DNA of 64,000 nt from Tomocerus qinae (lineage: Eukaryota; Arthropoda; Collembola; Entomobryomorpha; Tomoceridae): assembly GCA_020055645.1 (NCBI GenBank), contig CM034546.1, positions 15,934,001-15,998,000 of the forward strand, given 5' to 3'. Below, piece by piece: positions 19,740 to 57,015 of the stretch (position 1 is the first letter of the stretch; each line of letters begins with the position of its first letter). The notes under the pieces were generated by a model, which was not told the origin of the DNA, searched no databases, and was given only the letters and a program-made list of their open reading frames with translations. Both the position numbers and the translations under genes were made by a program.

Positions 19740-19999
19740 GACCGTTGTGCAGTGAAGATATTGAAATGGAATTATGTTTTCTGATAATTGATTATATATG
19801 CTGCAATGAGAGTCGAACTGAAAATGAAACATAAGCACCAAGGGGAAATTCTTTTATACAATTTGCATTTCGCAATAGCAGTAATAATCCGTGACAAAAT
19901 TAGAACGGCGTAATACGATTTATTGAGAAAATATACAAATTTTATAATGGGTTTTAATAATTCCATGAAATGACGCATTATGTTAATAATTATTGGTTT

Positions 20000-21490: not shown

Positions 21491-21496
21491 TCTCTA

Positions 21497-23460: not shown

Positions 23461-23543
23461 GTCCGAGTGTCGTCAGTTTTAGGCAACAGAATATATTATG
23501 TAGAACTTCGAGTATTCGTCTTTAGGTATTCTTTGTACATATA

Positions 23544-24567
23544 GTGGTGATTAACGGACTCTTGTAGGACTTTTAAAGGACGGACTTCTTATCGGACGGA
23601 CTCTTAACGGACGCGGACCCTTAACGGACGGACTCTTAACGGACGCGGACCCTTAACGGACGGACTCTTAACGGACGCGGACCCTTAACGGACGGACTCT
23701 TAACGGACGCGGACCCTTAACGGACGGACTCTTAACGGACGCGGACCCTTAACGGACGGACTCTTAACGGACGCGGACCCTTAACGGACGGACTCTTAAC
23801 GGACGCGGACCCTTAACGGACGGACTCTTAACGGACGCGGACCCTTAACGGACGGACTCTTAACGGACGCGAACCCTTTTACTTTTGCACTAATACATGG
23901 AACTCCCTCAGTCATACTCTTAAGTCCAAGGGTGAATCATTTAAAAATTTTTGTAAACTGTTAAACAACTATCTAATTATACAGCGTAAAGATCTATTTG
24001 TACATTAGGTTAAAATACTCTGTTACTAATTATTACTAAAATATAAGGCCATAGGTTAATGTTTTGTGACTTGTCACATTGAAATTATTTGTAAATATTT
24101 GACTATCGATTATCAAATGGGTACGACTCGGATATGATTGAGGGAGTAAGACAACTAAACTGGCTTGTCTTCGGTGCTGATTGTTGTTAAAACAAATTCA
24201 TCCTGTATGATTTGAACTTTTTGGCACTTAAATAAACTTTGAATTGAATTGAATTGAATTAACGGACGAACTCTTAACGGACGCGGACCCTTAACAGACG
24301 GACTCTTAACGGACGTGGACCCTTAACGGACGGACTCTTAACGGACAATGGCAATGGAATTGTAATCCCCACAGATGGTAATTTTGGGGCATGAGTTAAT
24401 TTTGGTCACAAATTTTAAGTTTTGTACCACGGTGCATGAGGTTGAGTTTGGCGGACTCATAGTGGACTGTGTCGTTAGGGTCCGTCCGTTAGGTGTCGGT
24501 CCGCTAAGAGTCCGTCCGATAAGAAGTCCGTCCTTTAAAAGTCCTACAAGAGTCCGTTAATCACCAC
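23544..24567. mobile_element. Foldback element FB1 with a 32-bp minisatellite
   Basis: The terminal inverted repeats are about 67 bp and nearly perfect, beginning gtggtgattaacggactctt and ending with its complement. They are flanked by the dinucleotide TA (23542-23543 and 24568-24569), the duplication size of Tc1/mariner-type elements. The inside of the left arm expands into about nine head-to-tail copies of a 32-bp unit (ttaacggacggactc plus ttaacggacgcggaccc). About two and a half more units lie at 24260-24345. The units resemble the terminal repeat itself (cggacggactcttaacgg). No transposase frame is present. A LINE 3' end is nested at 23875-24258. Confidence 0.85.
23875..24258 (+). mobile_element. 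LINE 3' end nested inside the FB1 minisatellite
   Basis: The first 130 bp encode the end of a LINE ORF2 (TWNSLSHTLKSKGESFKNFC), with a stop near 24008. A 3' UTR follows and ends in a (gaatt)n tail at about 24238-24258. Minisatellite units resume directly on the right (aacggacgaactcttaacgg). Microsatellite-type tails are usual in CR1-like LINEs. Confidence 0.8.
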
Positions 24568-25217
24568 TAGTACATAATCATACTTCTGAAAAGCAAGCAA
24601 ATATTTCATGGTTTCATTCCATGAGTAGATAGTAGTGTAGTTTTGTTTGATTCCTTGCCTTTATTCATTAACTACTTTCGTGATGCGTGGCTGTTTTTGC
24701 TTGCCATTCCAACTTCCGCAAAATATCAAGAAATGAAAGCCAAACTAAAATACAAGGAAAGTCGGAGCCATGTCATGTCAGTTTTATTTTGTAGTAAGTA
24801 TTCTTTGCAAGTAATGTACTTTTGTTGAAAAAACAATTTTTTTAAAACAATACAAAAGAGTGTAAATTATATATGAGGGCATTTAAATATGATAAACATG
24901 AAAGACTATAGCCATTTGTGTTAAAGTAACAGTCAAACATAAATAAAATGTTAATTTGTATTCTCCTCAATTTGTGGTCTTTTTGTAAAAATACAACGTA
25001 TCTTTGATTAAAACATCGCAATATCACTAGCAAGCATCAGTAGCTTGGCTAGTAGAGCGTTCGGAGCTCCAGGCCACTGCTGTTCGGACTCTCGGGTTCG
25101 ATCCCTGCCATTGTCAAGGCTGTTTATAGGGTTTGCTTGCTGGGTGACATTTCGGCTCGGTGGAAGTACGGGGTTGTCATCCGTGGGAGGGGTGGATTAA
25201 TTTCCTTAAATGCCGTA

Positions 25218-26071
25218 TTAGGATATTCATTTTAGTTTTCTGAATAGACCTCGAGAACAATAGGATTAAAAGATAACAACACAATGAAAGCTCTCGCTCG
25301 ACTCGGCTCACCGAGGTATATGCGTACCTAGTGAAAGAGTGCACACTGTGTCTAATCAAGTGGACTAGCGGACATAATGGCGCAATGTATTAAGTAATGA
25401 CTAAGGACTAGGAGATGGTTGAAGAGCATGAATTAAACATTGTAAAGTAGCACACAAATAAATAAAACACAAAACACTCAAAAATTAAACATTTAAAATT
25501 TATTTTTAAACCAACAGTCTTAAAACTTATAAAAGCGATTTGCTTCGACAAACTTGAAAAAAACGACCTTTTCGTATAACTGCGAGTTGCGTCGACAAAC
25601 TCGCACAAAAATGAAATTTTCGTATAACTGCGAGTTGCTTCGACAAACTAGCACTAAAAACTGACATTTTCGTATAAGTGCGAGTTGCGTCGACAAACTC
25701 GCACTTAATATTGACATTTTCGTGTAAGTGCGAATTGCTTTGACGCAACTCGCACTTATACGAAAATGTCATTTCATCATAAAAAATAAATTTTAATTGT
25801 TTAATTTTCGAGTGTTTTGTGTTTTATTTATTTGTGTGCTACTTTACAATGTTTAATTCATGCTCTTCAACCATCTCCTAGTCCTTAGTCATTACTCAAT
25901 ACATTGCGCCATTATGTCCGCTAGTCCACTTGATTAGACACAGTGTGCACTCTTTCACTAAGTACGCATATACCTCGGTGAGCCGAGTCGAGCGAGAGCT
26001 TTCATTGTGTTGTTATCTTTTAATCCTATTGTTCTCGAGGTCTATTCAGAAAACTAAAATGAATATCCTAA
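25218..26071. mobile_element. Foldback element FB2, 854 bp, with about 290-bp inverted ends
   Basis: The left arm begins ttaggatattcattttag and the right arm is its near-perfect complement. The flanking dinucleotide TA is duplicated (25216-25217 and 26072-26073). The centre (about 25537-25770) has four to five tandem units of about 50 bp. Each unit contains its own small inverted repeat, aagtgcgagtt ... aactcgcactt, around gtcgac. No transposase frame is seen; the overlapping minus-strand frames are by-products of the repeats. Confidence 0.85.
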
Positions 26072-26377
26072 TAAAAAGCTGCCTCGTTCCTAAAGTGCCT
26101 CACAAAGTAAATACGCAACACTCTACTGGCATGAGTGTATATATGTCGTAGACTGGGAGGGAAAGGTGACTGGGAGGGATATAATATCCCTCTCCGACTA
26201 GACTGGGTGAGATAGCTCTGTACCGCTAGCGGTACCGAACCATGAGGTTTCCGACTGGGAGGGATAGGTTGTAAAGGATTGATATGAATGATCCTATGTG
26301 TATAAGTGCCACAACTATCGCAGATTTTAGGTTACTCTTACATGTTTTATTCATTGTAATCATTATTTTCTATAATA

Positions 26378-26505
26378 TCCAAGTAAAAAATGTCCCTGTA
26401 GCTAGGAGTTCAATTATCTAAATTTTTGCAGGAACTGCTGCTGCCGTTGTGGTATTTAGTACCACAGTGAATATTATTCTTTTTACAGGGACATTTTAAC
26501 TTGGA
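26378..26505. mobile_element. Small MITE nested in FB3 (128 bp)
   Basis: The inverted ends are about 22 bp: tccaagtaaaaaatgtccct on the left and agggacattttaacttgga on the right. An inner palindrome ggtatttagtacc lies near 26450. It sits exactly where the outer FB3 arm homology ends. Confidence 0.55.
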
Positions 26506-26934
26506 CAGTTACCCTTGCACTTGCAAATGGATTGAGAGGTGTATGATGTTACAGATAGCAATGCAGTTATGTACTTCGGCCATACAATTGTGTCGATTTC
26601 AGCGGTCCATCGACCGACATTTACTTCACTTACCATACATTCAATGATCCCCTTGGCACATTGAATGTATGCTTAGTAAATAGTGGTAACTCCTAGCTTC
26701 GGAAAAAAACCATTAATAAATATAATAGCTACTTAATTAATAAATTAATAAATACTTAACTACTTGACTGTCAATCTTGACTTAATAATTTATGATTTAA
26801 TTATGACTGATACAAAAAGGGCAATATACTTAATATTTATAAATATTATAGAAAATAATGATTGCAATGAATAAAAAATGTAAGAGTAACCTAAAATCTG
26901 CGATAATAATAATTTATGATTTAATTATGACCAG

Positions 26935-28341
26935 ACGTCGGAATTTTATTTAAGTAAAATTTTTACAGTCTTCTCATAGAGTTCTGAGACTTCGTATCTA
27001 CACGAATCATGCACTGAGGATTTCAAAAATATAAAAGTGTTAGTAAACTTTTTTACACTTTTGAGTTATAAAAAATTTAAAGTTTTAGTAAAATTTTTTT
27101 ATATAAAAAAAGTTTACATAAAATTTTCGTCATAAAAAAATCTTAAGAAAATATTTTGGCAATTTCCAGAATATTGTATGTTCAAAATTTATTTTCAAAA
27201 TTCTCAAAATGAAACTGTTACAATAAAATAAATGCATTTGCATAAATTATCTTTTCAATAAGCCTACAGTGACAAGATTATCCAAGGTTAAGCGGGGCTT
27301 TCAAACATTACATTTTAGTGTCGTTGTAGTTAGAGTTGAATTACAAGAAAAATTGCAATATATATGCAGAAAGTAAAACTGGCAATTTCCGTCTTTATTT
27401 CTTGTCGATTGAATATTTTCTATTATACCATTATTGTTATAATGTTTTAGTATGCACAAGGCATTTTTGACTCCACGGCGACAAAACATGAGTATGTAAA
27501 ATGTTGAAATCCCAATGGTTTTACCTTATTATTTAACCATATGATTTTGCCATTGGTGTAATTTTGCCCGTTTTGTTGACTTTATTTAATTTCAACTTTA
27601 AAAATTTAATTTAAGATTTAAGATAATAAGGACGATATTACGTTTGGATTGAATTTTAACGTATTATATAATATCCGATTTTAAATTGGTCTGGAATTTT
27701 AGAAGTTAAGATTCGATATTAAGTTTAGATTAAATTTTAATATTAAAATTTATATGATTTTAAGATGGCAAGCTTGGACTACATTTTAATATTGCAATAT
27801 ATATGTTTTAAGATGTTAAGTTTGGATTAAGTTTTTATATTATTGAAATGTGTATGATTTTAAGATGGTAAGTTTGGATTTTAAAATTGAAGATTAAATG
27901 TACAATAATGAAATGGTATAATACATGCAGTTCTATATTTATCACCTGATTTTTTAGGTACAGTTTCTGGCTTTTGATTTTTTAATGTTATATTATAGAT
28001 AATATTTTTGCCGGAATCAAAAAAAACTGTTTAGAGAAAATTCTTGCCATGGTAAATTTTTATAAAAAATGTTTTGCCATTTTTGGTAAAATTTTATGAA
28101 AAATTTTTACCATTTTTTGGTAAAATTTTATGAAAAATTTTTACCATTTTTTGGTAAAATTTTATGAAAAATTTTTACCATTTTTTGGTAAAATTTTATG
28201 AAAAATTTTTACCATTTTTTGGTAAAATTTTATGAAAAATTTTTACCATTTTTTGGTAAAATTTTATGAAAAATTTTTACCATTTTTTGGTAAATTTTCG
28301 TGTAAATTTTTTGCGATTTTAAATAAATAAAATTCCGACGT
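26935..28341. mobile_element. Inner inverted-repeat element nested in FB3 (about 1.4 kb)
   Basis: The ends acgtcggaattttattta and taaataaaattccgacgt are perfect inverted repeats of 18 bp. Flanks share ttatgac-like sequence. The AT-rich middle has degenerate tandem repeats at 27580-27950 (ttttaagatggtaagtttgg-like) and an exact 34-bp array near the right end. No open frame of note. Confidence 0.6.
28075..28300. repeat. 34-bp tandem repeat, six to seven copies
   Basis: The unit is ggtaaaattttatgaaaaat plus ttttaccatttttt. It contains the palindrome ttttacca/tggtaaaa across the unit junction, so each repeat can form a hairpin. Copies are nearly identical, with more divergent units at the left edge. 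Confidence 0.9.
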
Positions 28342-29086
28342 ATGATTATGACTGATGCAAACTGTGCAATATACTTAACCTTTATGAATATTATAGAAAA
28401 TAATGATTACAATGAATAAAACATGTAAGAGTAACCTAAAATCTGCGATAGTTGTGGCACTTATACACATAGAATCATTCATATCAATCCTTTACAACCT
28501 ATCCCTCCCAGTCGGAAACCTCATGGTTCGGTACCGCTAGCGGTACAGAGCTATCTCACCCAGTCTAGTCGGAGAGGGATATTATATCCCTCCCAGTCAC
28601 CTTTCCCTCCCAGTCTACGACATATACATCCTTGGAAAGGCGGGTGGGGAAATCTTAACTGAGGCACCATACACCTGTTAAAACTGGATACAAATTCACC
28701 TTTCCTTAATCTGCCTAGCAGAAGGACTAGAAACTTACGAGTGAGCTACTGATTCAGTACCGTGGTGTCTGATGGGCCCATATTGACTATATAAAGTTGT
28801 ACTTTACTTTACTTTACTATTGCAAAAGTATTGGACTTCATGTTTCTTATTAATCAATCAATTTGTGATTAAATAGTTATATGGTGTTGGACATTAAAAA
28901 ACAGTTAACTAAACTCTTGTTATAATGATGTTATTGGTGTGGTACATATTATTTATTCACTACAATGTACATTTTTAAAGTTTAAAAATAAGTGTAGTTA
29001 GATAACATGTAATATACTGATGTATCATAATTTGCTTGGATAGATTTAAATTATGTTACTTTACTGCCTTTAATACTGAATTACAT

Positions 29087-34321: not shown

Positions 34322-35006
34322 GTGTTATCCAATAAACAGGATAATTCGTCACACAAAATATACCTTATTATTTTCATTTGACAATACAAATTGCAAGCCA
34401 TTATCAAGAGGCCTGGTGTTTAATAATCTACAGAAGTTTCACGGCTATTGTACTTAACTTGAACATAAGGAACAACAAAATTATGAGGAATCAATTTTCA
34501 ACATTTTTAAACCTATAATCAAATAACTTTGTACTAATATGCAACTGTTAATGTTGGTTTTCAATTTTGTGTAAGTGCAAGTGCGATAATGTATAGCCAC
34601 ATTTCAATTATCCTGACCAACACAAAGACATGCATGGGCAAATTAACAATGAAATAAACATAATACATTACAAAGTAATTCTGTTTTTATCCCATCCCAG
34701 AAAAGGAAGTTTTAAGCTAAAAGTTCCCCGTTTAATAAATGCTTTATATTATAATATTTGTAAAATATTTTGCAGAAACAGGAAAAAGGAAATGACACAA
34801 AATGGTTGTACAAAAAAGATACATTAGTGGTACTTACAAATGTTGCCTAACTTTTTACAAATGACTTAAATGCTTTCTTTAACTCTAGGCTTTTAATGCG
34901 CAGCAAGTTGTGCTTTCTTTGCCTACAGATTTTGTCTTAGATTAATTGGCGTCCGTCTTTAAACCCATTGATTTAAGAGGCATTACAAAAGAAAGTGTTA
35001 GTCATA

Positions 35007-35943
35007 ATGATTTCTCATAGATTGAGGTATTTAATATTTGTAGTAATCATACTTTCAAAACCATTAAAATCTTTTCGTATTGAATTTTTGGAAGATCCCA
35101 TTGCAGAGACTCAAGGGCTAAATTTGTGGAGAGTAAGTGTAATTAACGCATCGGAAGAGATCAGATTTCCCCTTGAGCTTCGTAGCAATGAAATGTGTCA
35201 AGTTCATATATTCTTTTGGAAAGAATCCTTACAACTGCCAGTACTAAGAATAAAATCCTTTTCAAAAGTAATACTTGTTTTCATCTGCGAATCTTTATGC
35301 AATATAAATGATCTATTGCGTTTAAGAAATCGTCTAATGGTGAAAAACGCTTTCGGTTCAAAAATAGTTCTCATTTATCAGTTGAAGTCAACTACAATGA
35401 GATCAGAAGATCAACCAGAATTACAAAGAATTACAATTACTCATTTGAAGATATTTCAAAAGAGAGATTCCACTATTCATAGCTTCATTCAACAGGCTTA
35501 GGGAGAAAATGGTGTGGCTTTATTGTGAACCAAATCAGGTACAGAAAATTTCATTTGACTATTCTATTTGGCTGGAGCCTTTTGACAAATTTTGTTGGAG
35601 GTCTCTAATTGTGCTTCTATGGGGATGCGCTTTGTTGAATGTCTTAAGGCTAAAGGGAGATACGACGTTTGTTCAAAGATTTCTCCGACTGGCGCCTCGG
35701 GATTTCTCTGAGACACATTTGTGGATTTTGTTGGGAATGAGTGTAGTTTTATTTGGTAGTTACGAGGGAGTTATTACAAGTCTCGTAATTTCACCGCCAG
35801 CTCCAAAAAGCATTTCCAACTTTATTGAGCTGACAAATAACGGCTACAAATTGCATTTTGGTTTCCGATGTACTCAGACCGGAATATATTATAATCTCCT
35901 AATGCGCCTTGACGTAGAAGCAGAATATTTTGTAAGCAAAAAT
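35007..35943 (+). pseudogene. Type-2 IR-like gene, 5' part, broken by FB4
   Basis: The start MISHRLRYLIFVVIILSK matches the intact gene at 57016. Two internal losses are visible against that gene: about 24 codons after the signal peptide (in frame), and about 350 bp in the extracellular region before TATTCATAGCTTCATTCAAC, where the frame is also lost. The first two membrane segments are still recognisable (CWRSLIVLLWGCALLNVL and LWILLGMSVVLFGSYEGVI). Homology stops at the FB4 border and resumes at 45881. Confidence 0.9.
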
Positions 35944-36033
35944 CAGGGATTTTACAAAATGCAGAGAGTTGCTACAGTTCAACAGTGCAACAGTAGCACT
36001 TACAGGGCCATTCATAAGCCATAAACTACTATA

Positions 36034-39000
36034 GCACTGTTGCATACAGATTGCAACTGTAGCACTGTTGCATACAGATTGCAACTGTAGCACTGTTGCA
36101 TACAGATTGCAACTGTAGCACTGTTGCATACAGATTGCAACTGTAGCACTGTTGCATACAGATTGCAACTGTAGCACTGTTGCATACAGATTGCAACTGT
36201 AGCACTGTTGCATACAGATTGCAACTGTAGCACTGTTGCATACAGATTGCAACTGTAGCACTGTTGCATACAAATTTCAACTGTACCACTGTTGCATAAA
36301 GATTGCAACTGTAGCACTGTTGCATACAGATTGCAACTGTAGCACTGTTGCATACAGATTGCAACTGTAGCACTGTTGCATACAGATTGCAACTGTAGCA
36401 CTGTTGCATACAGATTGCAACTGTAGCACTGTTGCATACAGATTGCAACTGTAGCACTGTTGCATACAGACTGCAACTGTAGCACTGTTGCATACAGATT
36501 GCAACTGTAGCACTGTTGCATACAGATTGCAACTGTAGCACTGTTGCATACAGATTGCAACTGTACCACTGTTGCATACAGATTGCAACTGTAGCACTGT
36601 TGCATACAGATTGCAACTGTAGCACTGTTGCATACAGATTGCAACTGTAGCACTGTTGCATACAGATTGCAACTGTAGCACTGTTGCATACAGATTGCAA
36701 CTGTACCACTGTTGCATACAAATTTCAACTGTACCACTGTTGCATAAAGATTGCAACTGTAGCACTGTTGCATACAGATTGCAACTGTAGCACTGTTGCA
36801 TACAGATTGCAACTGTAGCACTGTTGCATACAGACTGCAACTGTAGCACTGTTGCATACAGATTGCAACTGTAGCACTGTTGCATACAGATTGCAACTGT
36901 AGCACTGTTGCATACAGACTGCAACTGTAGCACTGTTGCATACAGATTGCAACTGTAGCACTGTTGCATACAGATTGCAACTGTAGCACTGTTGCATACA
37001 GATTGCAACTGTACCACTGTTGCATACAGATTGCAACTGTAGCACTGTTGCATACAGATTGCAACTGTAGCACTGTTGCATACAGATTGCAACTGTTGCA
37101 TACAGATTGCAACTTTAGCACTGTTGCATACAGATTGCAACTAAATCACTGTTGCATACAGATTGCAACTGTAGCACTGTTGCATACAGATTGCAACTGT
37201 AGCACTGTTGCATACAGATTGCAACTGTAGCACTGTTGCATACAGATTTCAACTGTAGCACTGTTGCATACAGATTGCAACTGTAGCACTGTTGCATACA
37301 GATTTCAACTGTAGCACTGTTGCATACAGATTTCAACTGTAGCACTGTTGCATACAGATTGCAACTAAATCACTGTTGCATACAGATTGCAACTAAATCA
37401 CTGTTGCATACAGATTGCAACTGTAGCACTGTTGCATACAGATTGCAACTGTAGCACTGTTGCATACAGATTGCAACTGTAGCACTGTTGCATACAGATT
37501 GCAACTGTAGCACTGTTGCATACAGATTTCAACTGTAGCACTGTTGCATACAGATTGCAACTAAATCACTGTTGCATACAGATTGCAACTGTAGCACTGT
37601 TGCATACAGATTGCAACTGTAGCACTGTTGCATACAGATTGCAACTAAATCACTGTTGCATACAGATTGCAACTGTAGCACTGTTGCATACAGATTGCAA
37701 CTGTAGCACTGTTGCATACAGATTGCAACTAAATCACTGTTGCATACAGATTGCAACTGTAGCACTGTTGCATACAGATTGCAACTGTAGCACTGTTGCA
37801 TACAGATTGCAACTAAATCACTGTTGCATACAGATTGCAACTGTAGCACTGTTGCATACAGATTGCAACTGTAGCACTGTTGCATACAGATTGCCACTAA
37901 ATCACTGTTGCATACAGATTGCAACTGTAGCACTGTTGCATACAGATTGCAACTGTAGCACTGTTGCATACAGATTGCAACTGTAGCACTGTTGCATACA
38001 GATTGCAACTGTAGCACTGTTGCATACAGATTTCAACTGTAGCACTGTTGCATACAGATTGCAACTGTAGCACTGTTGCATACAGATTTCAACTGTAGCA
38101 CTGTTGCATACAGATTTCAAATGTAGCACTGTTGCATACAGATTGCAACTGTAGCACTGTTGCATACAGACTGCAACTGTAGCACTGTTGCATACAGATT
38201 GCAACTGTAGCACTGTTGCATACAGATTGCAACTGTAGCACTGTTGCATACAGATTGCAACTGTAGCACTGTTGCATACAGATTGCAACTGTAGCACTGT
38301 TGCATACAGATTGCAACTGTAGCACTGTTGCATACAGATTGCAACTGTAGCACTGTTGCATACAGATTTCAACTGTAGCACTGTTGCATACAGATTGCAA
38401 CTGTAGCACTGTTGCATACAGTTTGCAACTGTAGCACTGTTGCATACAGACTGCAACTGTAGCACTGTTGCATACAGATTGCAACTGTAGCACTGTTGCA
38501 TACAGATTGCAACTGTAGCACTGTTGCATACAGATTGCAACTTTAGCACTGTTGCATACAGATTGCAACTAAATCACTGTTGCATACAGATTGCAACTGT
38601 AGCACTGTTGCATACAGATTGCAACTGTAGCACTGTTGCATACAGATTGCAACTGTAGCACTGTTGCATACAGATTTCAACTGTAGCACTGTTGCATACA
38701 GATTGCAACTGTAGCACTGTTGCATACAGATTTCAACTGTAGCACTGTTGCATACAGATTTCAACTGTAGCACTGTTGCATACAGATTGCAACTAAATCA
38801 CTGTTGCATACAGATTGCAACTGTAGCACTGTTGCATACAGATTGCAACTAAATCACTGTTGCATACAGATTGCAACTGTAGCACTGTTGCATACAGATT
38901 GCAACTGTAGCACTGTTGCATACAGATTGCAACTGTAGCACTGTTGCATACAGATTGCAACTGTAGCACTGTTGCATACAGATTTCAACTGTAGCACTGT

Positions 39001-42000
39001 TGCATACAGATTGCAACTGTAGCACTGTTGCATACAGATTGCAACTGTAGCACTGTTGCATACAGATTGCAACTGTAGCACTGTTGCATACAGATTTCAA
39101 CTGTAGCACTGTTGCATACAGATTGCAACTGTAGCACTGTTGCATACAGATTGCAACTGTAGCACTGTTGCATACAGATTTCAACTGTAGCACTGTTGCA
39201 TACAGATTTCAACTGTAGCACTGTTGCATACAGATTTCAACTGTAGCACTGTTGCATACAGATTGCAACTGTAGCACTGTTGCATACAGATTTCAACTGT
39301 AGCACTGTTGCATACAGATTGCAACTAAATCACTGTTGCATACAGATTGCAACTGTAGCACTGTTGCATACAGATTGCAACTAAATCACTGTTGCATACA
39401 GATTGCAACTGTAGCACTGTTGCATACAGATTGCAACTGTAGCACTGTTGCATACAGATTGCAACTGTAGCACTGTTGCATACAGATTGCAACTGTAGCA
39501 CTGTTGCATACAGATTTCAACTGTAGCACTGTTGCATACAGATTGCAACTGTAGCACTGTTGCATACAGATTGCAACTGTAGCACTGTTGCATACAGATT
39601 GCAACTGTAGCACTGTTGCATACAGATTTCAACTGTAGCACTGTTGCATACAGATTGCAACTGTAGCACTGTTGCATACAGATTTCAACTGTAGCACTGT
39701 TGCATACAGATTTCAACTGTAGCACTGTTGCATACAGATTGCAACTAAATCACTGTTGCATACAGATTGCAACTGTAGCACTGTTGCATACAGATTGCAA
39801 CTAAATCACTGTTGCATACAGATTGCAACTGTAGCACTGTTGCATACAGATTGCAACTGTAGCACTGTTGCATACAGATTGCAACTGTAGCACTGTTGCA
39901 TACAGATTGCAACTGTAGCACTGTTGCATACAGATTGCAACTGTAGCACTGTTGCATACAGATTTCAACTGTAGCACTGTTGCATACAGATTGCAACCAA
40001 ATCACTGTTGCATACAGATTGCAACTGTAGCACTGTTGCATACAGATTGCAACTGTAGCACTGTTGCATACAGATTGCAACTAAATCACTGTTGCATACA
40101 GATTGCAACTGTAGCACTGTTGCATACAGATTGCAACTGTAGCACTGTTGCATACAGATTGCAACTGTAGCACTGTTGCATACAGATTGCAACTGTAGCA
40201 CTGTTGCATACAGATTGCAACTGTAGCACTGTTGCATACAGATTTCAACTGTAGCACTGTTGCATACAGATTGCAACTGTAGCACTGTTGCATACAGATT
40301 TCAACTGTAGCACTGTTGCATACAGATTTCAAATGTAGCACTGTTGCATACAGATTGCAACTAAATCACTGTTGCATACAGATTGCAACTGTAGCACTGT
40401 TGCATACAGATTGCAACTGTAGCACTGTTGCATACAGATTGCAACTGTAGCACTGTTGCATACAGATTGCAACTGTAGCACTGTTGCATACAGATTTCAA
40501 CTGTAGCACTGTTGCATACAGATTGCAACTGTAGCACTGTTGCATACAGATTGCAACTAAATCACTGTTGCATACAGATTGCAACTGTAGCACTGTTGCA
40601 TACAGATTGCAACTGTAGCACTGTTGCAGACAGATTGCAACTGTAGCACTGTTGCATACAGATTGCAACTGTAGCACTGTTGCATACAGATTTCAACTGT
40701 AGCACTGTTGCATACAGATTGCAACTGTAGCACTGTTGCATACAGATACCAACTGTAGCAGTGTTGCATACAGATACCAACTGTAGCAGTGTTGCATACA
40801 GATTGCAACTGAAGCATTGTTGCATACAGACTGCAACTGTAGCACTGTTGCATACAGATTGCAACTGTAGCACTGTTGCATACAGATTGCAACTGTAGCA
40901 CTGTTGCATACAGACTGCAACTGTAGCACTGTTGCATACAGATTGCAACTGTAGCACTGTTGCATACAAATTTCAACTGTACCACTGTTGCATACAGATT
41001 GCAACTGTAGCACTGTTGCATACAGATTGCAACTGTAGCACTGTTGCATACAAATTTCAACTGTACCACTGTTGCATACAGATTGCAACTGTACCACTGT
41101 TGCATACAGATTGCAACTGTAGCACTGTTGCATACAGATTGCAACTGTAGCACTGTTGCATACAGATTGCAACTGTAGCACTGTTGCATACAGATTGCAA
41201 CTGTAGCACTGTTGCATACAGATTGCAACTGTAGCACTGTTGCATACAGATTTCAACTGTAGCACTGTTGCATACAGATTGCAACTGTAGCACTGTTGCA
41301 TACAGTTTGCATCTGTAGCACTGTTGCATACAGACTGCAACTGTAGCACTGTTGCATACAGATTGCAACTGTAGCACTGTTGCATACAGATTGCAACTGT
41401 AGCACTGTTGCATACAGACTGCAACTGTAGCACTGTTGCATACAGATTGCAAATGTAGCACTGTTGCATACAGATTGCAACTGTAGCACTGTTGCATACA
41501 GATTGCCACTAAATCACTGTTGCATACAGATTGCAACTGTAGCACTGTTGCATACAGATTGCAACTGTAGCACTGTTGCATTCAGATTTCAACTGTAGCA
41601 CTGTTGCATACAGATTGCAACTGTAGCACTGTTGCATACAGATTTCAACTGTAGCACTGTTGCATACAGATTTCAACTGTAGCACTGTTGCATACAGATT
41701 GCAACTAAATCACTGTTGCATACAGATTGCAACTGTAGCACTGTTGCATACAGATTGCAACTGTAGCACTGTTGCATACAGATTGCAACTAAATCACTGT
41801 TGCATACAGATTGCAACTGTAGCACTGTTGCATACAGATTGCAACTGTAGCACTGTTGCATACAGATTGCAACTGTAGCACTGTTGCATACAGATTGCAA
41901 ATGTAGCACTGTTGCATACAGATTGCAACTGTAGCACTGTTGCATACAGATTTCAACTGTAGCACTGTTGCATACAGATTGCAACTGTAGCACTGTTGCA

Positions 42001-43420
42001 TACAGATATCAACTGTAGCACTGTTGCATACAGATTGCAACTGTAGCACTGTTGCATATGGATTGCTACTGTAGCACTGTTGCATATGAATTGCTACTGT
42101 AGCACTGTTGCATACAGATTGCAACTGTAGCACTGTTGCGTATGGATTGCTACTGTAGTACTGTTGCATATGGATTGCTACTGTAGCACTGTTGCATACA
42201 GATTGCAACTGTAGCACTGTTGCATATGGATTGCTACTGTAGTACTGTTGCATATGGATTGCTACTGTAGCACTGTTGCTTACAGATTGCTACTGTAGCA
42301 CTGTTGCATACAGATTGCAACTGTAGCACTGTTGCATACAGATTGCAACTGTAGCACTGTTGCATACAGATTTCAACTGTAGCACTGTTGCATACAGATT
42401 GCAACTGTAGCACTGTTGCATACAGATATCAACTGTAGCACTGTTGCATACAGATTGCAACTGTAGCACTGTTGCATATGGATTGCTACTGTAGCACTGT
42501 TGCATATGAATTGCTACTGTAGCACTGTTGCATACAGATTGCAACTGTAGCACTGTTGCGTATGGATTGCTACTGTAGTACTGTTGCATATGGATTGCTA
42601 CTGTAGCACTGTTGCATACAGATTGCAACTGTAGCACTGTTGCATATGGATTGCTACTGTAGTACTGTTGCATATGGATTGCTACTGTAGCACTGTTGCT
42701 TACAGATTGCTACTGTAGCACTGTTGCGTATGGATTGCTACTGTAGTACTGTTGCATACAGATTGCTACTGTAGCACTGTTGCATACAGATTGCAACTGT
42801 AGCACTGTTGCATATGGATTGCTACTGTAGTACTGTTGCATATGGATTGCTACTGTAGCACTGTTGCTTACAGATTGCTACTGTAGCACTGTTGCATATG
42901 GATTGCTACTGTAGTACTGTTGCATATGGATTGCTACTGTAGTACTGTTGCATATGGATTGCTACTGTAGCACTGTTGCATACAGATTGCAACTGTAGCA
43001 CTGTTGCATATGGATTGCTACTGTAGTACTGTTGCATACAGATTTCAACTGTAGCACTGTTGCATATGGATTGCTACTGTAGTACTGTTGCATACAGATT
43101 TCAACTGTAGCACTGTTGCATACAGATTGCAACTGTAGCACTGTTGCATACAGATTGCAACTGTAGCACTGTTGCATACAGATTGCAACTGTAGCACTGT
43201 TGCATACAGATTGCAACTGTAGCACTGTTGCATACAGATTGCAACTGTAGCACTGTTGCATACAGATTGCAACTGTAGCACTGTTGCATATGGATTGCTA
43301 CTGTATTACTGTTGCATATGGATTGCTTCTGTAGCACTGTTGCTTACAGATTGCTACTGTAGCACTGTTGCTTACAGATTGCTACTGTAGCACACATTTG
43401 AACTGTAGCACTGTTGCATA
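36034..43420. repeat. 28-bp minisatellite, left arm, roughly 260 units
   Basis: The main unit is cagattgcaactgtagcact plus gttgcata. Variants include gatttcaac, gactgcaac and taaatcact units, and from about 42050 a catatggattgctac type dominates. Higher-order structure is present: about 360 bp starting at 41941 recur identically 420 bp (15 units) later, and other segments repeat at 532 bp (19 units), 1428 bp (51 units) and 1708 bp (61 units). Because 28 is not a multiple of 3 and the unit has no stop on one strand, long spurious frames appear. Confidence 0.97.
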
Positions 43421-43437
43421 TACGCTTGCACTGTTGC

Positions 43438-43610
43438 CAGGGTTGCGGTGGATGATATATGATGGATGGTGGAAACTGGACAAAATCAATTTCTTCCTGG
43501 ATAAAATTGATTTTGTCCAGGAATAAAGTGGACAAAATTAATTTTGTCCATGGACAAAACTGGTTTCATCCAGTGCAATTTTCATTTCGTCCGGACAATA
43601 TACAACCTTG
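43438..43610. mobile_element. Small hAT-like MITE in the FB4 centre
   Basis: Ends cagggttgcgg and tacaaccttg are imperfect inverted repeats. The flanks actgttgc (43430-43437) and actgtagc (43611-43618) are a near-match 8-bp duplication drawn from the array sequence. The inside repeats acaaaattaattttgtcca palindromes. It therefore jumped into the edge of the left array. Confidence 0.65.
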
Positions 43611-43618
43611 ACTGTAGC

Positions 43619-44090
43619 TGTTTTAATTATTGTTTTCGTTCCAATTGTGATCAATTGTATCAACAGTAAATCAATAATAACTATAAGCTAACAATCATTG
43701 ATATGATTTACTATTAATTATTGTATCAAATCAAATCAAAAGTAATCAAAATAAATCTAACTCCATTAATTATTCCACCTAAAATGTGCACACGGTTCTC
43801 TTTATTCAGGAGAGCTACTGAAGCGGCTCGCACTAGGTCTTTTGTATATTTTATGTAAATATAAGATTATTTTATGATTCATCATACATTATTAACTTTT
43901 AATTACAAACCGCGAAGGAATGCCTGACGTTACATAATTAAAAAGAATAGTAATATTATTATTAACCTGAATTTATTTTAATAATTTTTTTAAGTAAATT
44001 TATTCAGTAAATTACCAAATTAATATGGGTGTAATAATAGTTTGGTTTTTGTGGTAAATCATCATGTTCAGAATTAAATGCCTCTGCAAC
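43619..44090. other. Unique AT-rich centre of FB4
   Basis: Non-repetitive spacer between the two inverted arrays. No reading frame or known motif seen. Confidence 0.6.
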
Positions 44091-44094
44091 TGTA

Positions 44095-45790
44095 TGCAAC
44101 AGTGCTACTGATGAACTGTATGCAACAGTGCTACTGATGAACTGTATGCAACAGTGCTACTGATGAACTGTATGCAACATTGCTACTGATGAAGTGTATG
44201 CAACAGTGCTACTGATGAACTGTATGCAACAGTGCTACTGATGAACTGTATGCAACAGTGCTACTGATGAACTGTATGCAACAGTGCTACTGATGAACTG
44301 TATGCAACAGTGCTACTGATGAACTGTATGCAACAGTGCTACTGATGAACTGTATGCAACAGTGCTACTGATTAACTGTATGTAACAATGCTACAGTTGC
44401 AATCTGTATGCAAAAATGCTACAGTTGCAATCTGTATGCAACAGTGCTACAGTTGCAATCTGTATGCAACAGTGCTACAGCAGAAATCTGTATGCAACAG
44501 TGCTACAGTTGAAATCTGTATGCAACAGTGCTACAGTTGCAATCTGTATGCAACAGTGCTACAGTTGCAATCTGTATGCAACAGTGATACAGTTGCAATC
44601 TGTATGCAACAGTGCTACAGTTGCAATCTGTATGCAACAGAGCTACAGTTGCAATCTGTATGCAACAGTGCTACAGTTGCAATCTGTATGCAACAGTGCT
44701 ACAGTTGCAATCTGTATGCAACAGTGCTACAGTTGCAATCTGTATGCAACAGTGCTACAGTTGCAATCTGTATGCAACAGTGCTACAGTTGCATTCTGTA
44801 TGCAACAGTGCTACAGTTGCAATCTGTATGCAACAGTGCTACAGTTGCAATCTGTATGCAACAGTGCTACAGTTGCAATCTGTATGCAACAGTGCTACAG
44901 TTGCAATCTGTATGCAACAGTGCTACAGTTGCAATCTGTATGCAACAGTGCTACAGTTGCAATCTGTATGCAACAGTGATTTAGTTGCAATCTGTATGCA
45001 ACAGTGCTACAGTTGCAATCTGTATGCAACAGTGCTACAGTTGCAATCTGTATGCAACAGTGCTACAGTTGCAATCTGTATGCAACAGTGCTACAGTTGC
45101 AATCTGTATGCAACAGTGCTACAGTTGCAATCTGTATGCAACAGTGCCACAGTTGCAATCTGTATGCAACAGTGCTACAGTTGCAATCTGTATGCAACAG
45201 TGCTACAGTTGCAATCTGTATGCAACAGTGCTACAGTTGCAATCTGTATGCAACAGTGCTACAGTTGCAATCTGTATGCAACAGTGCTACAGTTGCAATC
45301 TGTATGCAACAGTGCTACAGTTGCAATCTGTATGCAACAGTGCTACAGTTGCAATCTGTATGCAACAGTGCCACAGTTGCAATCTGTATGCAACAGTGCT
45401 ACAGTTGCAATCTGTATGCAACAGTGCTACAGTTGCAATCTGTATGCAACAGTGATACAGTTGCAATCTGTATGCAACAGTGATACAGTTGCAATCTGTA
45501 TGCAACAGTGATACAGTTGCAATCTGTATGCAACAGTGATACAGTTGCAATCTGTATGCAACAGTGCTACAGTTGCAATCTGTATGCAACAGTGCTACAG
45601 TTGCAATCTGTATGCAACAGTGCTACAGTTGCAATATGTATGCAACAGTGCTACAGTTGCAATCTGTATGCAACAGTGCTACAGTTGCATTCTGTATGCA
45701 ACAGTGCTACAGTTGCAATCTGTATGCAACAGTGCTACAGTTGCATTCTGTATGCAACAGTGCTACAGTTGCAATCTGTATGCAACAGTG
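44095..45790. repeat. Right arm of FB4: 26-bp then 28-bp units, inverted
   Basis: The first 275 bp are about eleven copies of a 26-bp unit (ctactgatgaactgtatgca plus acagtg). From about 44380 the unit becomes 28 bp (ctacagttgcaatctgtatg plus caacagtg), the exact complement of the left-arm unit, about 50 copies. This arm is more uniform than the left arm. Confidence 0.95.
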
Positions 45791-45880
45791 CTATTGTAGT
45801 TTATGGCTTATGAATGGCCCTGTAAGTGCTACTGTTGCACTGTTGAACTGTAGCAACTGTCTGCATTTTGTAAAATCCCC

Positions 45881-46423
45881 AAAAATCACCCGTTAGCCAA
45901 TTACAGTTCTATGGATAGTACAATCAGGTTTTGTGAAGATTTTAGTAAATTAGAACAAGAAGATTTATTCCACAAATCCATTGATGATTTTAAGATATGG
46001 AGTCATGAAAATTTGAGCTCATTCATGTTGGAATATAAAATCGGCTTGTTGTACAGCTTGGAAGAAATTGAATCAAAAGTTCTGCTGTTAACCGCTGAAA
46101 GTAATGGAAAGGCGAATTGCCGTGCCACAGAAGAGGTTTTTATGGAAACAGAATTACAATGGCATATGTTTGGAAACTCTGATAAGATTATACTTTCGTC
46201 ATTGACAAAGTTATGGGACGTTGGACTTTTCAAGTTTTGGTATGATTCCTACAATAGGATTCGGTTCAATCTACAACTGAGAGAGAAGGAAGAAAATGTA
46301 GATGAGCCTGAGCAGCTTCGCATTTCTGGGAGAATTGCAAACATTTTCATTCTAAGTTTATTAGCTTTGTTTGGCTGCATTTTATGCTTCATTGCGGAAA
46401 CTACATGGAAGGTCCAATATTGA
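45881..46423 (+). pseudogene. Type-2 IR-like gene, 3' part, after FB4
   Basis: Resumes the gene broken at 35943, from NHPLANYSSMDSTIRFCED to the stop at 46423. The frame is open through the second extracellular lobe (WHMFGNSDKIILSSLTKLW) and the last membrane helix (ANIFILSLLALFGCILCFIA). It is about 95 percent like the 58.3-58.9 kb segment by eye. The continued openness suggests that the FB4 insertion is fairly young. Confidence 0.9.
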
Positions 46424-46616
46424 CAGTCACAGAAATAATAAGAATTTAGCGTCCTATCACTAAATTAAAATTTGCAATATATATGTAATGATTAATGATG
46501 ATGATTTATGTGTAATTCCTTAAATGTAGCATGTAGCACCAGTTGTCATTTACCATAATAATTTTAGCTGATCAGTTCAAAAGATTTTAAGATTGCATTG
46601 CATGCTAGCTGAAAGA

Positions 46617-46800
46617 TATATATCGTCTGCTTAATATTACAAGGTAACAAGCCATTTTATCATGACTGCGACAAGGTAACAAACCACTGTATCAAGCGAT
46701 GTGGTTTGTTACCTTGTCGCTGCCATGATAAAATGGTTTGTTACTTTGTAGCAGCCATGATAAAATGGCTTGTTACCTTGTAATATTAAGCAGACGATAT
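46617..46800. mobile_element. Hairpin MITE, about 184 bp
   Basis: The arms tatcgtctgcttaatattac and gtaatattaagcagacgata are perfect complements. The match continues through aaggtaacaagccattttat, about 45 bp in all, with inner repeats of gataaaatgg. The paralogue near 18935 (gaaagaaatttatgttggc) lacks it. The duplication at the border is short (AT-type) and cannot be fixed exactly. Confidence 0.8.
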
Positions 46801-47251
46801 GTTGGCATACATCAATGTGGTTATTTAACTAGGCATGCAGAGCACCAAATAGGCGGCTTTTTCCTTTTTGGTAAAATTAATTAAAATAAATTGCATCTTT
46901 TATGTAAAAAAATTATAGTAAGCTATAGAAAATGTCAAATGAAAAGAAAATTCGGATCACAATAAAGCTTGTCATGTACTGAATACCATTATAGCAGGAG
47001 CCAATTTTTTTAATGCTCTGACCTACATTATGTTTTCATGAATGTAAATTAAAATAAAAATGGTTGAAAAGATTCGTTTCGGCGGATAAGGTTTTTTATG
47101 CATTTTATTTGCAACTAAGACGTACTGATTTATTCAGGATTGGCTGACAAACACTACAGTAATGGTAGGTTTAAAACTTAGTCATTTCATATAAAATGAG
47201 CCAAAGGTTAGATTTGTAATCAGTCAAGAGAGTCTTTGAAGTGAAAATTAT

Positions 47252-47604
47252 TTATTCCCCAAAATCACATGGGCGGCCATCGCATGGTCCCATATGGCAT
47301 ATTTCCACTGGTCCTAAAATAATTGTATAGAATACGAGGCAATTAATTGTAAAGTATGATAGATATTGGAATAATGGGAAAGTAAATACAGTGAATACTT
47401 AATTTAGATTTAAATGTAGAAAAATATAAACTAACGTGGATAGCCTGGTGGTACCAAAGCGGCGCAAAATAACCATGACCTATTACGATACGTTTTTCCG
47501 TTAGTGCCACAAACAGGATCTTCTTCGCCGAAGGGTCTGCAACAGCTGCTGATGCGAATTAATAGAGCGGCGCACAGCACAATGAAAAGAAGTATTTTAC
47601 CCAT
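47252..47604 (-). CDS. Atypical Kazal-type inhibitor, two exons
   Basis: Exon 1 is 47436-47604 and exon 2 is 47252-47313, with a 122-bp phase-1 intron. The start is MGKILLFIVLCAALLIRISS, then CCRPFGEEDPVCGTNGKTY and RNRSWLFCAALVPPGYP. Exon 2 gives RPVEICHMGPCDGRPCDFGE. It has an extra cysteine at the mature N-terminus (CC). It is the intact counterpart of the frameshifted 19.4 kb copy and lies tail to tail with the broken IR-like gene. A TATA box (tataaaag) is at 47724-47731. Confidence 0.85.
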
Positions 47605-49713
47605 GACCGTTGTGCAGTGAAGATATTGAAATGGAATTATGTTTTCTGATAAGATAATTGATTATATAATATGCTGCAATGAGAGTCGAACTGAAAATGA
47701 AACATAAGCACCAAGGGGAAATTCTTTTATACAATTTGCATTTCGCAATAGCAGTAATAATCCGTGACAAAAGTAGAACGGCCTAATACGATTTATTAAG
47801 AAAATATACAAATTTTATAATGGGTTTTAATAATTCCATGAAATGACGCATTATGTTAATAATTATTGGTTTACCATGTTATCATTAGATGCGCATATGA
47901 ATAGTAACTGTTTTAGTTTGGCACAAAAATGCAGAAGTTGACATTGATATTATCAAGAAGTAAATCCACTTTTTTACCTGAATTGATAGCAGGTTGCAAT
48001 GACGACTGTGTGTATGAGAAAAATGATTAAAACCAGATGATATAGGTAACCTGTATTATGATTTGATATCGTTAACGGTGAATCTATGTTTGTGGGTATT
48101 TCATAAATGCTTGGGGTTTTGTAATCATGGTCGTCTTTCAAAGAAGATTTAATTTTTGCGGGTTGTCGCTTCCCTTATTCTAAGAATGCTATAAATATAT
48201 TACTCCCATGATTCAGTTTATATATATACGTGTTACTAACTACTCACTAGTAACTACCAATGGCCAAGGGTGACGGTAATTCTAAACCAATTGAGAAGGA
48301 GGATAGTTGATTGTATGCTGCAGCTGTATTTCAATTAGCTTAAGCAGTCTTATAATACAGAGACATGTTATTGTAGTCTTTGGACGTCTTTAAACTAAAA
48401 GAGTATCCAAGAATCTCTAATATGTAATTGATTTAAAATAATGACCAATATTTTTATTTGTCATTGACTAATTATATCTTATTTTTCAAACACGCGCATT
48501 TTAAATTCGGCTAAAGTCGATGAAATGGTTGTATATATATTTTTGTATATAAACAAACATTTTTTGGATGCTTGAACAACGTAAACGGTTATTCTATGTA
48601 GTGAAATGTATTTGTAAACCAACCAGAATTGATCATTTTTCGGCTGTCTTTTAACATATTATTAACTTCGAGTTCCAGTACCAGTCTACATCAAGAGAAT
48701 AACATATTCTCAATTTTGGTTGTTTGAAAGTACACGGGTTGTCAGCACACCGACCTTCTAATGTGGTATACTTTCAAATTTTGAACTAATAGATAAAGTA
48801 GGTATACATGAAAAGTAATTAAACCGACGCACATTTAAACGGATGACGACATTAAATGTGATGTTTATAGTTTGGGCCTAGATAGACTCTTTAGTACCTA
48901 AAAGGAGGCCTAAAAATATTTTAAACATTTATTTGACCCGTATTCCCGAATTCGGGGTTTCAATTGAAAGGCAAATAGCTGGGTCAGAGGTTAACGTAGG
49001 ATGTTGAAATTTGTATAGTTAAAAAGGTTCTTTTTCTGAAAATATTTTTATGAATTTTATGGAAAACGAGGAGGAAGAGGGACGAGTTCCGTGGCAGGGA
49101 AATGGACCAGTGTCAGGTGCATCCATCTTTACTAACACCTAAGCCCGGCAACGAACGGCGTAGGAAAAAAAACTTTGGAATGTATGACAGCCACGATAAT
49201 TGTTCCGTCAGCAGTGAGTACAGTCAGTAGTAAGAGGATGTCTCATCTTTACTTCCAAATCAAACTTAATGTCTGAAATCGTTCCCAATGCAATTGATTA
49301 AAACATTCCAACATCTCCATTGCGAAAGTAATGAACTTCATGTTATAAAATTAATCAATTAACCGGGGATTAAATAGTTAGAATACTAATCAAAATTAAC
49401 TAAAATGATTAGTGCCGTGGTATTATTTATTCACTACAAGATGCATTTTAAAAGTTTTAAATGAGTACTCAAATGTACAAAGTGCGATGTAGGTGTATAG
49501 ATACATGATATTATTTATATGTCAGGAAGATATACATATGTGAATTCATTTTTATTTAGGATTAATTAACAAATGCTATTTAAATATGGAAAATTTAGAA
49601 TACAGTCTGCCGTGTTTCTCATGCGTAATTGTTCTTTTATTTGAAAACTTGAAATCCTTTTTTAAAATGATAAGAAATGTTTTTTTTTGTTTTTACACCG
49701 GTCAAGCGGATAT

Positions 49714-51680: not shown

Positions 51681-52118
51681 CACCTACGAATTCGCATAAG
51701 CAGTACATAATCCGTTTAATAAGTAGTTCGTCATAAACCGTTTTTTATTACTTGATAATATATACATTTTATAGTGGATATTAATAATAATTCCGCGAAA
51801 TGACGCATTATGTTAATAATTATTGGTTTATCATGTTATAAGGTTCGCATATGTTTATCTACAGTTTTCATTTGTTATTAAAGTCCTGGCTTTTCATAAT
51901 GTAGTAATGGTAATGAGATGGATAATTATTGTTATACCCTCCCATTTAGTTTTGCAACTGTAGGCTGTGACCTAATTTGAACATTTTTATGCTACCACAG
52001 CACTCTCCGTTATTCTTACTTGGTTTTTAATAATTCATATCAACTATGAATAAGCTGTTATTTCCCCTTTTGAGTAGATAGGCATGGGATCCTGTGTAGG
52101 TGGAATATCTGCATATTA

Positions 52119-53397
52119 TTATACTTATATTATTATATTATTGGTAGAGGTCACTTTACGTATGTAAATGAAAATAATGTTTCAGATGTAGAAAACATAA
52201 ATCTCTCAGTCCCCCAGGGGTCAATACTTGGACCATTATTATTTACTTTAATGATAAATGACCTTCCGTATCATGTAAAGCAATCTCTAATGTTTTTATT
52301 TGCAGACGATAACACTATTATTGTAAGTGGTAGACCAGATGACATTTATGTACTTAAAGAAAAATTAGAGTCCGATATTAATAGTATATTAGATTGGATG
52401 AAGTCAAATTATATGGAAATTAATGCAGATAAGACTGTAATGATGATAGCGGGTAGACCTTGTGCTGTTGAGAGTCTCAAAAACTTTACTGTGAATGTTG
52501 GTAGTGAACAAATAACTCCTTCAGATAGTATAAAAGTTTTGGGTTTACATATTGATTCCAATTTAAAATTTGGTTTACAGATAACTAATATGAAATCTAA
52601 GTGTAATCCTATCATAATATCACTGTACCCTTTTAGATATTTACTAACGGAGCAAAATCGACTTCTCATTATGAATGCATACGTCCAACCTATTATTAAC
52701 TATATGTCCATCATTTGGGGCACGGCTTCAAATGAAAACATTAAGTGTGTTGAAAGAATAGTAAGACTAGCTGGTAGATTTGTTTTATTGGCCCAAAAGT
52801 TTGAAAGTGTGAAAGAACAAATAACAATTAAGCTAAAATGGTTATTCCCTAAATACCAATATAAGTATGAATTGTGCAAACTAATATATAGCATTATGAT
52901 TAATGAATGTCCCCCGTACTTTAAAAACTACTTGTCGTTTGATATATCTAATACTATGACTACTAGAAGTAAGACCTATGTTAAATTGCATGTGGATGGG
53001 AATGTTGATGCATTCGGTAAACGTAGTTTTACAGAACAGGCTTATAAGTATTGGCACAGTATCCCAGTTGATATTAGAAATTGTAATTCAAGTAAACTAT
53101 TTAAAAGAAAGTTAAAAACATTTTTGTTAGAAGAGCAACTTAAAGAGACTGATCTTCCATTATCAGTCGTACCTTGTGATCTTACTTGCATTGATTCTGT
53201 TTGTAACAATTTGAATGACTAATTTTATTGTAATTAACTACAACAATTTCGTTTGCTAACCGTGTAATTTTGTAACTTAGAGGGTTTTCTTTTTCCTGTC
53301 GAAAAATTATATTCTAAATTAATACAAGTGTTTTTTGACAGCTGTACAATTGCCTCCGTGTGAGGAAGCAGTATGATTCGAAATAAATAAATAAAAT
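52119..53397 (+). mobile_element. 5'-truncated CR1/Jockey-like LINE
   Basis: The paralogue at 17367-17385 is continuous, so this is an insertion. The frame is open from about 52143 to 53222. It encodes the last part of a reverse transcriptase, with LSVPQGSILGPLLF and the catalytic FADD box (LMFLFADDNTII). The usual C-terminal domain follows (MNAYVQPIINYMSIIWGTA and KYWHSIPVDIRN). A 170-bp 3' UTR ends in (aaat)n at about 53380-53397. No endonuclease or ORF1 is present, so it cannot move by itself. The 21.5 kb fragment is a related copy. Confidence 0.9.
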
Positions 53398-55434: not shown

Positions 55435-57015
55435 GGTCTTAGCTTTTACGTTACGATGGAAAATAAAACCTATCTATTTAATACAAAATACTTTACGCCC
55501 GGCCCGCTGTGTTGTCGCAAAGAGTTGAAGAGACTATATAAATAAAATAGATAATTTGAACAGCAAACTCAGCCAGACAGAGGAAGCCTTTTACTGAAAT
55601 GTCATTAGCTTAGTTGATAATAATTTAGAAGTGGTATTGCTCTCTATCTGTAATCTGGGTCGTTTAGTGCATTTTCATACTTTTCTATGGTTTCATTCAT
55701 AGCATGAAATTGGAAAAGTTATGTGTAGAGGAAGTGGAAGTCTTTTATTAATAGGCGATCCATTTGATTCGCTAAATAATAAGCAATGTGTTGTGAATTG
55801 TTTAATCTCGTGCATAACTTTACAGCAAGAATGGATATTAATCCATTCTACTTATAAGTTTAGTCAAGCGATGCTATAAAAAATTAGCAAATTTTTATAT
55901 TGTGTTTCTGTATTAACTTTTAACTATTGTTAAATTGCTAACCTCCTATACGGCTTACGGATAAATATTGTATGCCGATAGTATGTGAATTCAAATTCAT
56001 TCTTTCTATTTATCTCTCTTATTCATCATAACAGTTAAAAGTTGTAGTTTATGTTACGATAACGGAAGTGTTTAAGTTACATGCCAACCTGACGCCATTA
56101 TTGTACCTGTAGTATAGAACTTGATATTTACTGTCGTAATTTAAAAGTTAGGTATGCGTGATGAAGTTAATTAGCAGTTGGTAGTTTTATCAATTGCCCC
56201 TAAGCATCGTTAATATAGGCATTGCCATGATATCGTGTTTTATGCTTTCAAACTATTCCAGTGTCATTTCTCATGAATCATGATAATTCACCTTCAGAAT
56301 ACCCAGAGAGGTATATATTTTTACTATACAGTGGATATTATATATTGTAAAATATCGGAAATAAGTAAGCAGAAATTTCAGTACTATGTTGCATGCAGTG
56401 ATACACATTAATATTGGATTACAAATAACTGTCTCTTTTGTTACAATGCATGTTTATGATGATATGTATAAAATGTGTAATCCATTCTCGTGACACAAAA
56501 AAAAACTTTATTATATTCAATTAAAAATACAAATTGCAAACCATTATCAAAATGTTTGGTGTTTAATAATCTACAGAAGTTGCACGGCTATTGTACTTAA
56601 CTTAAATATAAAAAACAACAAAAATATGAGGAACCAATATTCAACATTTTTAAAAGTATAAACAACTTTGTATCAACATGCAACTGTTAATGTTGGTAAT
56701 TAATTTTAATAACAGTTCAATCATCCTGATCAACACAAAGACATGAAATATTAACAATAAAATAAGCATAATATGGGTGTAGCCTAAACCATAACAAAGT
56801 AATTCTGTTTTTATCCCAGACCAGAAAAAGAAGTTCTAAGCACTATTGTTCCCAGTTTAATAAATACATAATATTATGTTTGTATAATATTTTGCAGAAA
56901 CAGGAAAAAGGAAATGAGACACTTACAAATGTTGCCTTAGATTAATATTATGGCATACGTCTTTGAAGATTAAACCCCCTTGATTTAAGAGGTACTAGAA
57001 AACAAAGTGTAAGCC

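Follow-up and report, generated by a model that had tools for sequence, protein, structure and literature searches.

What kind of element places two opposed arrays of one 28-bp unit inside a receptor-like gene copy, and do such arrays move as a unit? We addressed this question in a window (the whole 64,000-nucleotide stretch of DNA analyzed) located on contig C1, which at 140 Mb makes up 42% of the 334-Mb genome assembly, and followed the element from its borders in the window to its relatives elsewhere in the same genome.

Structure of the window element

The element, here called E1, occupies positions 35946 to 45879 (9,934 bp); alone among the boundary choices listed, this border puts the two ends in register from the first base. 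The inverted ends start with GGGATTTTACAAAATG and are identical over 20 bases from the tip and at 88 of 90 positions overall, which agrees with the near-identical 90-bp ends described in an earlier note on this DNA. They are flanked flush by a perfect 9-bp target duplication, CAAAAATCA (35937 to 35945 and 45880 to 45888), where that note had read 7 to 8 bp. The 20-mer at the tip occurs twice in the window, in opposed orientation, compared to 0.01 occurrences expected in shuffles.

Inward of the left terminal inverted repeat (35946 to 36027, plus strand), which carries three consecutive octamers (CTGTTGCA-CTGTTGAA-CTGTAGCA; 35970 to 35993, minus strand), Tandem Repeats Finder recognized a 28-bp array at 36028 to 43393 (plus strand) in two stretches of about 38 and 225 copies; this left arm thus comprises about 263 units in two phases. 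The right arm (44085 to 45793, minus strand) is a second 28-bp array of about 62 units in the opposite orientation, with a 26-bp variant adjoining the core, and leads into the right terminal inverted repeat (45794 to 45879, minus strand). The opposed 7.4-kb and 1.7-kb arrays that had been claimed are therefore present, their lengths being as assembled. Over 1.8 kb, the arms pair as inverted repeats that are 93.8% identical, and their outermost eleven 100-bp blocks (1.1 kb) are 94 to 99% identical. The left arm contains unit variants and higher-order duplications of groups of units, for example one of 420 bp, as expected of unequal exchange. Between the arms lies a core of ∼0.7 kb (43394 to 44084, plus strand) without a long open frame; described earlier as unique, it is so within the window, but four other genome copies (L011, L012, L013, and L025) contain the same core at 92 to 97% identity.

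As a single strand, two units fold better than shuffles do (z = −2.5; 5 of 200 shuffles as good), and the end folds more weakly (z = −1.3; 22 of 200 as good). Rfam gave no match at gathering scores. Exact scans of viral contigs found neither the 28-mer nor the end 20-mer; in the genome contig collection the 28-mer was also absent, and the end 20-mer had two bacterial matches (L001 and L002), which we take as chance.

Four inverted-repeat elements with internal tandem arrays, E1 to E4, lie in this one window. E2 (23542 to 24569) has inverted repeats and 32-bp arrays and shows a perfect duplication of 7 bp, GTACATA; by eye, its interior resembles the 3′ end of a LINE. E3 (25216 to 26073) consists of 292-bp inverted repeats (99% identical) around a 50-bp tandem array and showed no clear target duplication beyond 2 bp, and E4 (26140 to 28626) consists of 242-bp inverted repeats (99% identical) around a 34-bp tandem array.

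Insertion site and the interrupted receptor copy

E1 separates the 5′ part (34959 to 35945, plus strand) from the 3′ part (45880 to 46427, plus strand) of a receptor pseudogene. As the earlier note had claimed, the uninterrupted target is available for comparison: a paralogue at 57016 to 58899 (plus strand), a channel-like open frame of about 627 amino acids, runs unbroken across the E1 site, and the flanks of E1 continue each other there, as at an empty site. The nine target bases in the paralogue (motif at 58357) are AAAAAATCA, the same as CAAAAATCA at 8 of 9 positions, and the aligned parts of the interrupted copy are 85 to 95% identical to it. The interrupted copy also has an internal deletion of its own, in which 23 bases (35427 to 35449) stand in place of 354 in the paralogue (57517 to 57870) with a change of frame. 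Because of this replacement, it is a pseudogene independent of the E1 insertion, whichever came first; E1 does sit in a receptor-like copy, but one that would be a pseudogene regardless.

The sole Pfam match to the paralogue was Lig_chan (E = 0.1); on this weak match, together with features known from insect ionotropic receptors, we tentatively take the copies to be receptor genes. A protein search with the paralogue gave no match among 7,999 candidates scored, a PDB sequence search likewise gave none, and the model of its structure, with a mean pLDDT of 34, could not be used. Related receptor copies, their flanks duplicated as well, lie in the window at 18495 to 21494, 34959 to 35945, 45880 to 49317, and 56970 to 58903, and there is a reverse transcriptase frame at 52074 to 53222.

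Copies of the element across the genome

The genome search with the terminal sequence that the earlier note had proposed yielded further copies: the 83-bp E1 end had at least 41 matches (40 of 63 candidates scored), and a 19-mer from the end occurred exactly 51 times, compared to 0 for its reversed control (77 compared to 2 when up to two mismatches were allowed). We examined 23 end pairs, labeled L with a number, among them the coding copy described below. A flush, perfect 9-bp duplication borders 18 of these 23 pairs, or 16 of 20 distinct insertions when duplicates, judged by common flanks, are counted once (L011/L013, L021/L022, and L025/L031; the left flank of L031 was compared via L024, at the same place). 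Four duplications among the 17 pairs examined first can also be read as 10 bp if the border is shifted by one base. The five pairs without a flush 9-bp duplication are L015, L023, L025, L031, and L064; matches between the flanks of different copies, sought as a sign of recombination behind the missing duplications, revealed just duplicates of one insertion.

Lengths within the family range from 660 to 11,719 bp. In the 15 copies aligned, the ends are near-identical over their first 74 bases. Arrays built of the 28-bp unit, or of its 26-bp or 18-bp variants, are present in all 23 copies, on both sides in 22 and on one side in L065; by our criterion, L022, L023, and L028 lack a middle domain. 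Five single ends had no partner within the 10 kb retrieved (L032, L034, L036, L037, and L039), and for L035, on contig C68, both arms are present in the sequence retrieved, which stops before the right end. The idea of a mobile foldback unit that carries a minisatellite thus holds beyond the window, since other copies share its ends, arrays, and 9-bp duplications.

Assemblies are prone to errors in long, near-identical tandem repeats, so one might suspect that no transposon exists here and that the locus reflects local satellite expansion and inversion inside a gene, or an assembly artifact. We consider this very improbable: the same ends occur at many sites with differing flanks and target duplications, and the empty paralogous site is continuous. 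We reject local expansion in view of the target duplications together with the coding copy, the length of the arrays still resting on the assembly.

Duplicates of one insertion, which have the target duplication in common, show that arms also change after insertion, since their interiors are not the same. L021 and L022 share their target duplication and have flanks that are 99% identical, yet an alignment of their interiors has 204 mismatches and 233 gap columns; L022 contains inverted stretches, with the caveat that alignments of arrays are rough.

A coding copy with a MULE transposase

In the genome, 59 matches to the Pfam MULE model were found, one of which (C1:51545949-51546233) falls within a family copy at C1:51540878-51551264. 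This copy is 10,387 bp long, its ends are identical at 89 of 90 positions, it is flanked by the duplication GGCTAAAAT, and it carries 28-bp arrays on both sides of the MULE match. We joined its open frames by our own splice calls; the gene is therefore a prediction, with uncertain N-terminal exons. The spliced product exceeds the Pfam cutoffs for MULE (34.9 bits; cutoff, 27.6), SWIM (21.8 bits; cutoff, 19.6), and Ulp1-type Peptidase_C48 (31.5 bits; cutoff, 20.7). Its MULE-SWIM part matched seven proteins in a public collection (best E = 2.5e−32), and aligning it with six of the seven homologues (all but the weakest, P0007) showed no variation at residues D91, D156, E271, C177, and H180. A FLYWCH finger, which marks the N terminus of Phantom-clade transposases, was not seen in the eight open frames scanned, for which the N-terminal exons are uncertain. 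An opposed pair of 32-bp minisatellite arrays lies beside the coding copy (C1:51538340-51538577), and a short array of similar appearance occurs in the window at 46702 to 46782; this minisatellite is perhaps another foldback family.

On these grounds, E1 is very probably a nonautonomous cut-and-paste transposon of the Mutator superfamily (MULE) and of foldback type. Mutator elements make target duplications of 8 to 11 bp, commonly 9 (PMC6446971 and PMC3169594), and the E1 family shows this size. A MULE domain with DDE residues lies between the same ends in the sister copy, not in the window copy. Most arthropod MULEs have G or C in the first three terminal bases (PMC13359780), as does the E1 family. 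The foldback description, long inverted arms of tandem repeats in variable number around a middle domain, fits as well, except that the three copies named above lack the middle.

The earlier note had instead assigned the ends to the hAT type. hAT elements make 8-bp target duplications and have ends that start with CA(G/A)NG, and a left border placed at CAGGGATTTT would indeed give a hAT-like start, flanked on its outer side by a 7-bp match. That border, however, leaves the ends mismatched from the first base, whereas the ends that match start with GGGATT and flush 9-bp duplications border 18 of the 23 end pairs. The autonomous hAT relative that the note had suggested looking for turned out to be a coding relative in the same genome, as anticipated, but with a MULE transposase between the same ends. 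A nonautonomous hAT element with 7- to 8-bp duplications therefore has virtually no likelihood, and we regard hAT as ruled out by 9-bp duplications at independent sites and by the coding copy. The P superfamily is ruled out by the same two features: long arms with internal tandem repeats make E1 look like a Galileo-type foldback element, but 9-bp duplications and a transposase of MULE rather than P type leave that reading next to no probability.

Within the broader group, a closer question is whether the family belongs to Rehavkus rather than to Mutator in the strict sense. We think this unlikely, though far less remote than the alternatives above. Its 9-bp duplications and arrays adjoining both ends would suit Rehavkus, as would a PHD-like cysteine/histidine motif (C4HC2H) that we noticed by eye toward the 3′ end of the coding copy, within an open frame; this finger, however, scores below every Pfam cutoff. 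The minisatellite adjoining the 3′ inverted repeat, a mark of Rehavkus, is found in the E1 family, but on both sides. Moreover, the coding copy has a SWIM finger, a domain absent from the Rehavkus entry in the table of PMC6446971.

Core groups and origin of the 28-bp unit

Five of 14 cores (L017, L018, L020, L029, and 56 bases of L021) match the coding-copy interior at 91 to 100%, as deletion derivatives would; the other nine, including that of the window, have no match to it. By sequence comparison, the cores fall into group A (window, L011, L012, L013, and L025), group B (L014, L015, L016, and L019), and group C (L017, L020, and L029, with L018 and L021 linked more loosely); groups A and B have common pieces at 76 to 91% identity. 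With the window core among the nine, we did not identify the coding parent of E1 itself; this, like the five end pairs that lack a flush 9-bp duplication, weighs against the Mutator reading. Since the ends are near-identical, we infer that one transposase could serve all copies.

The end contains three octamers (CTGTWGMA) at 8-bp spacing, and the 28-bp unit contains two at the same spacing. None of 5,000 shuffles of the end had three, for a motif that was picked after looking. Local alignment of end and unit scored 31, compared to 14.5 (standard deviation, 2.6) for shuffles, of which 1 in 2,000 scored as high. Most likely, the octamer run in the tip gave rise to the 28-bp unit, and the likeness fits arms grown out of the element's own end, as proposed for Tetris.

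We envision that the MULE transposase, or that of a sister subfamily, would recognize the GGGATTTTACAAAATG tip and the repeated octamers, which are candidate binding sites after the Galileo model. Acting in trans, it would excise the element and insert it at a 9-bp stagger, with the arms carried along. The 28-bp arrays may grow by unequal exchange, slippage, or gap repair, so that arm length would come to differ from copy to copy; the window copy would have entered the receptor copy once the latter and its paralogue had diverged. A single genome displays every step between a Mutator element that codes for transposase and derivatives consisting almost entirely of minisatellite. The target duplications indicate that kilobase arrays travel as a unit, so that satellite-like DNA is moved about a chromosome by a transposon.

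Chromosomal distribution

The surprise in the E1 family is its distribution. Allowing no more than one mismatch, we found 64 ends, 61 on C1 and one each on the small contigs C18, C28, and C68. A further 13 ends have two mismatches (nine on C1, three on C2, and one on C3); some of these are chance matches, since the reversed control gives 2. The 61 ends on C1 form 37 of the family's 40 clusters, for which the binomial probability is 2e−11 if clusters were spread by length. From 80.3 to 132.7 Mb, C1 has a 52-Mb gap (probability, 3e−8) that holds no cluster and no end with fewer than two mismatches; one two-mismatch end falls in it. Both figures come from a crude chance model, as the insertions may depend on one another.

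As a control, we used the E4 end, which occurs 192 times in the genome. Of the first 100 matches listed, 98 are on C1 (at least 51% of all 192), and 30 of these 98 fall inside the 80.3- to 132.7-Mb gap. As a point against E1 being a special case, C1 is somewhat rich in transposons generally (P = 0.007 for E4; 41 of the 59 MULE matches), and the E1 family is narrower in spread than E4. That this is a satellite-carrying Mutator family whose spread is limited to a single block of one chromosome is a tentative reading, to which we give less than even weight. If true, the confinement could reflect strictly local transposition; alternatively, it could mark a chromosome with a separate history (sex chromosome, fusion, or introgression) that was given its own satellite by a transposon. 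Confinement to part of C1 lets one ask whether transposons can provide one chromosome with its own satellite.

Comparison with known systems

We found no description of the E1 family in the literature listings and paper passages searched. The earlier note had called the arrangement unusual, which is partly right: tandem-repeat arms are documented in foldback and Mutator elements, but the arms in those accounts fall far short of several kilobases.

Muta1 and other MULEs of Aedes aegypti have subterminal tandem repeats and have been called type 2 foldback elements (PMC5225508). Like the E1 family, Muta1 has a MULE transposase, 8- to 9-bp duplications, and many nonautonomous derivatives with varied interiors (PMC5225508); unlike Muta1, with its 145-bp ends and nine 12-bp repeats, the E1 family has arms of up to hundreds of 28-bp units, and its coding copy adds a Ulp1-type protease domain. 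Such domains in MULEs are documented in plants (PMC2528002). Tm1 of root-knot nematodes is likewise a Mutator/foldback element with 9-bp duplications, ends of tandem repeats in variable number, and three groups, one of which encodes transposase (PMC3169594). Its unit is 13 to 15 bp and its outermost motifs are asymmetric, whereas E1 ends match from the first base.

In Rehavkus, target duplications are 9 bp long, the transposase has a PHD finger, and a minisatellite precedes the 3′ end (PMC6446971). By description alone, the E1 family resembles Rehavkus and the aphid element Phantom in having 9-bp (8- to 10-bp) duplications and a minisatellite inside the element (PMC6446971), but theirs is on one side, while E1 has inverted arrays on both.

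Tetris, of Drosophila virilis, is a foldback element whose arm repeats resemble part of its end, as in E1, and can become satellite DNA (PMC4079207). It differs in its 220-bp unit and in that a coding copy was not found by its authors (PMC4079207). Galileo shares long arms with E1 but has a transposase of the P superfamily; its repeated transposase-binding sites provide a model for what the arms of the E1 family may do (PMC3688188).
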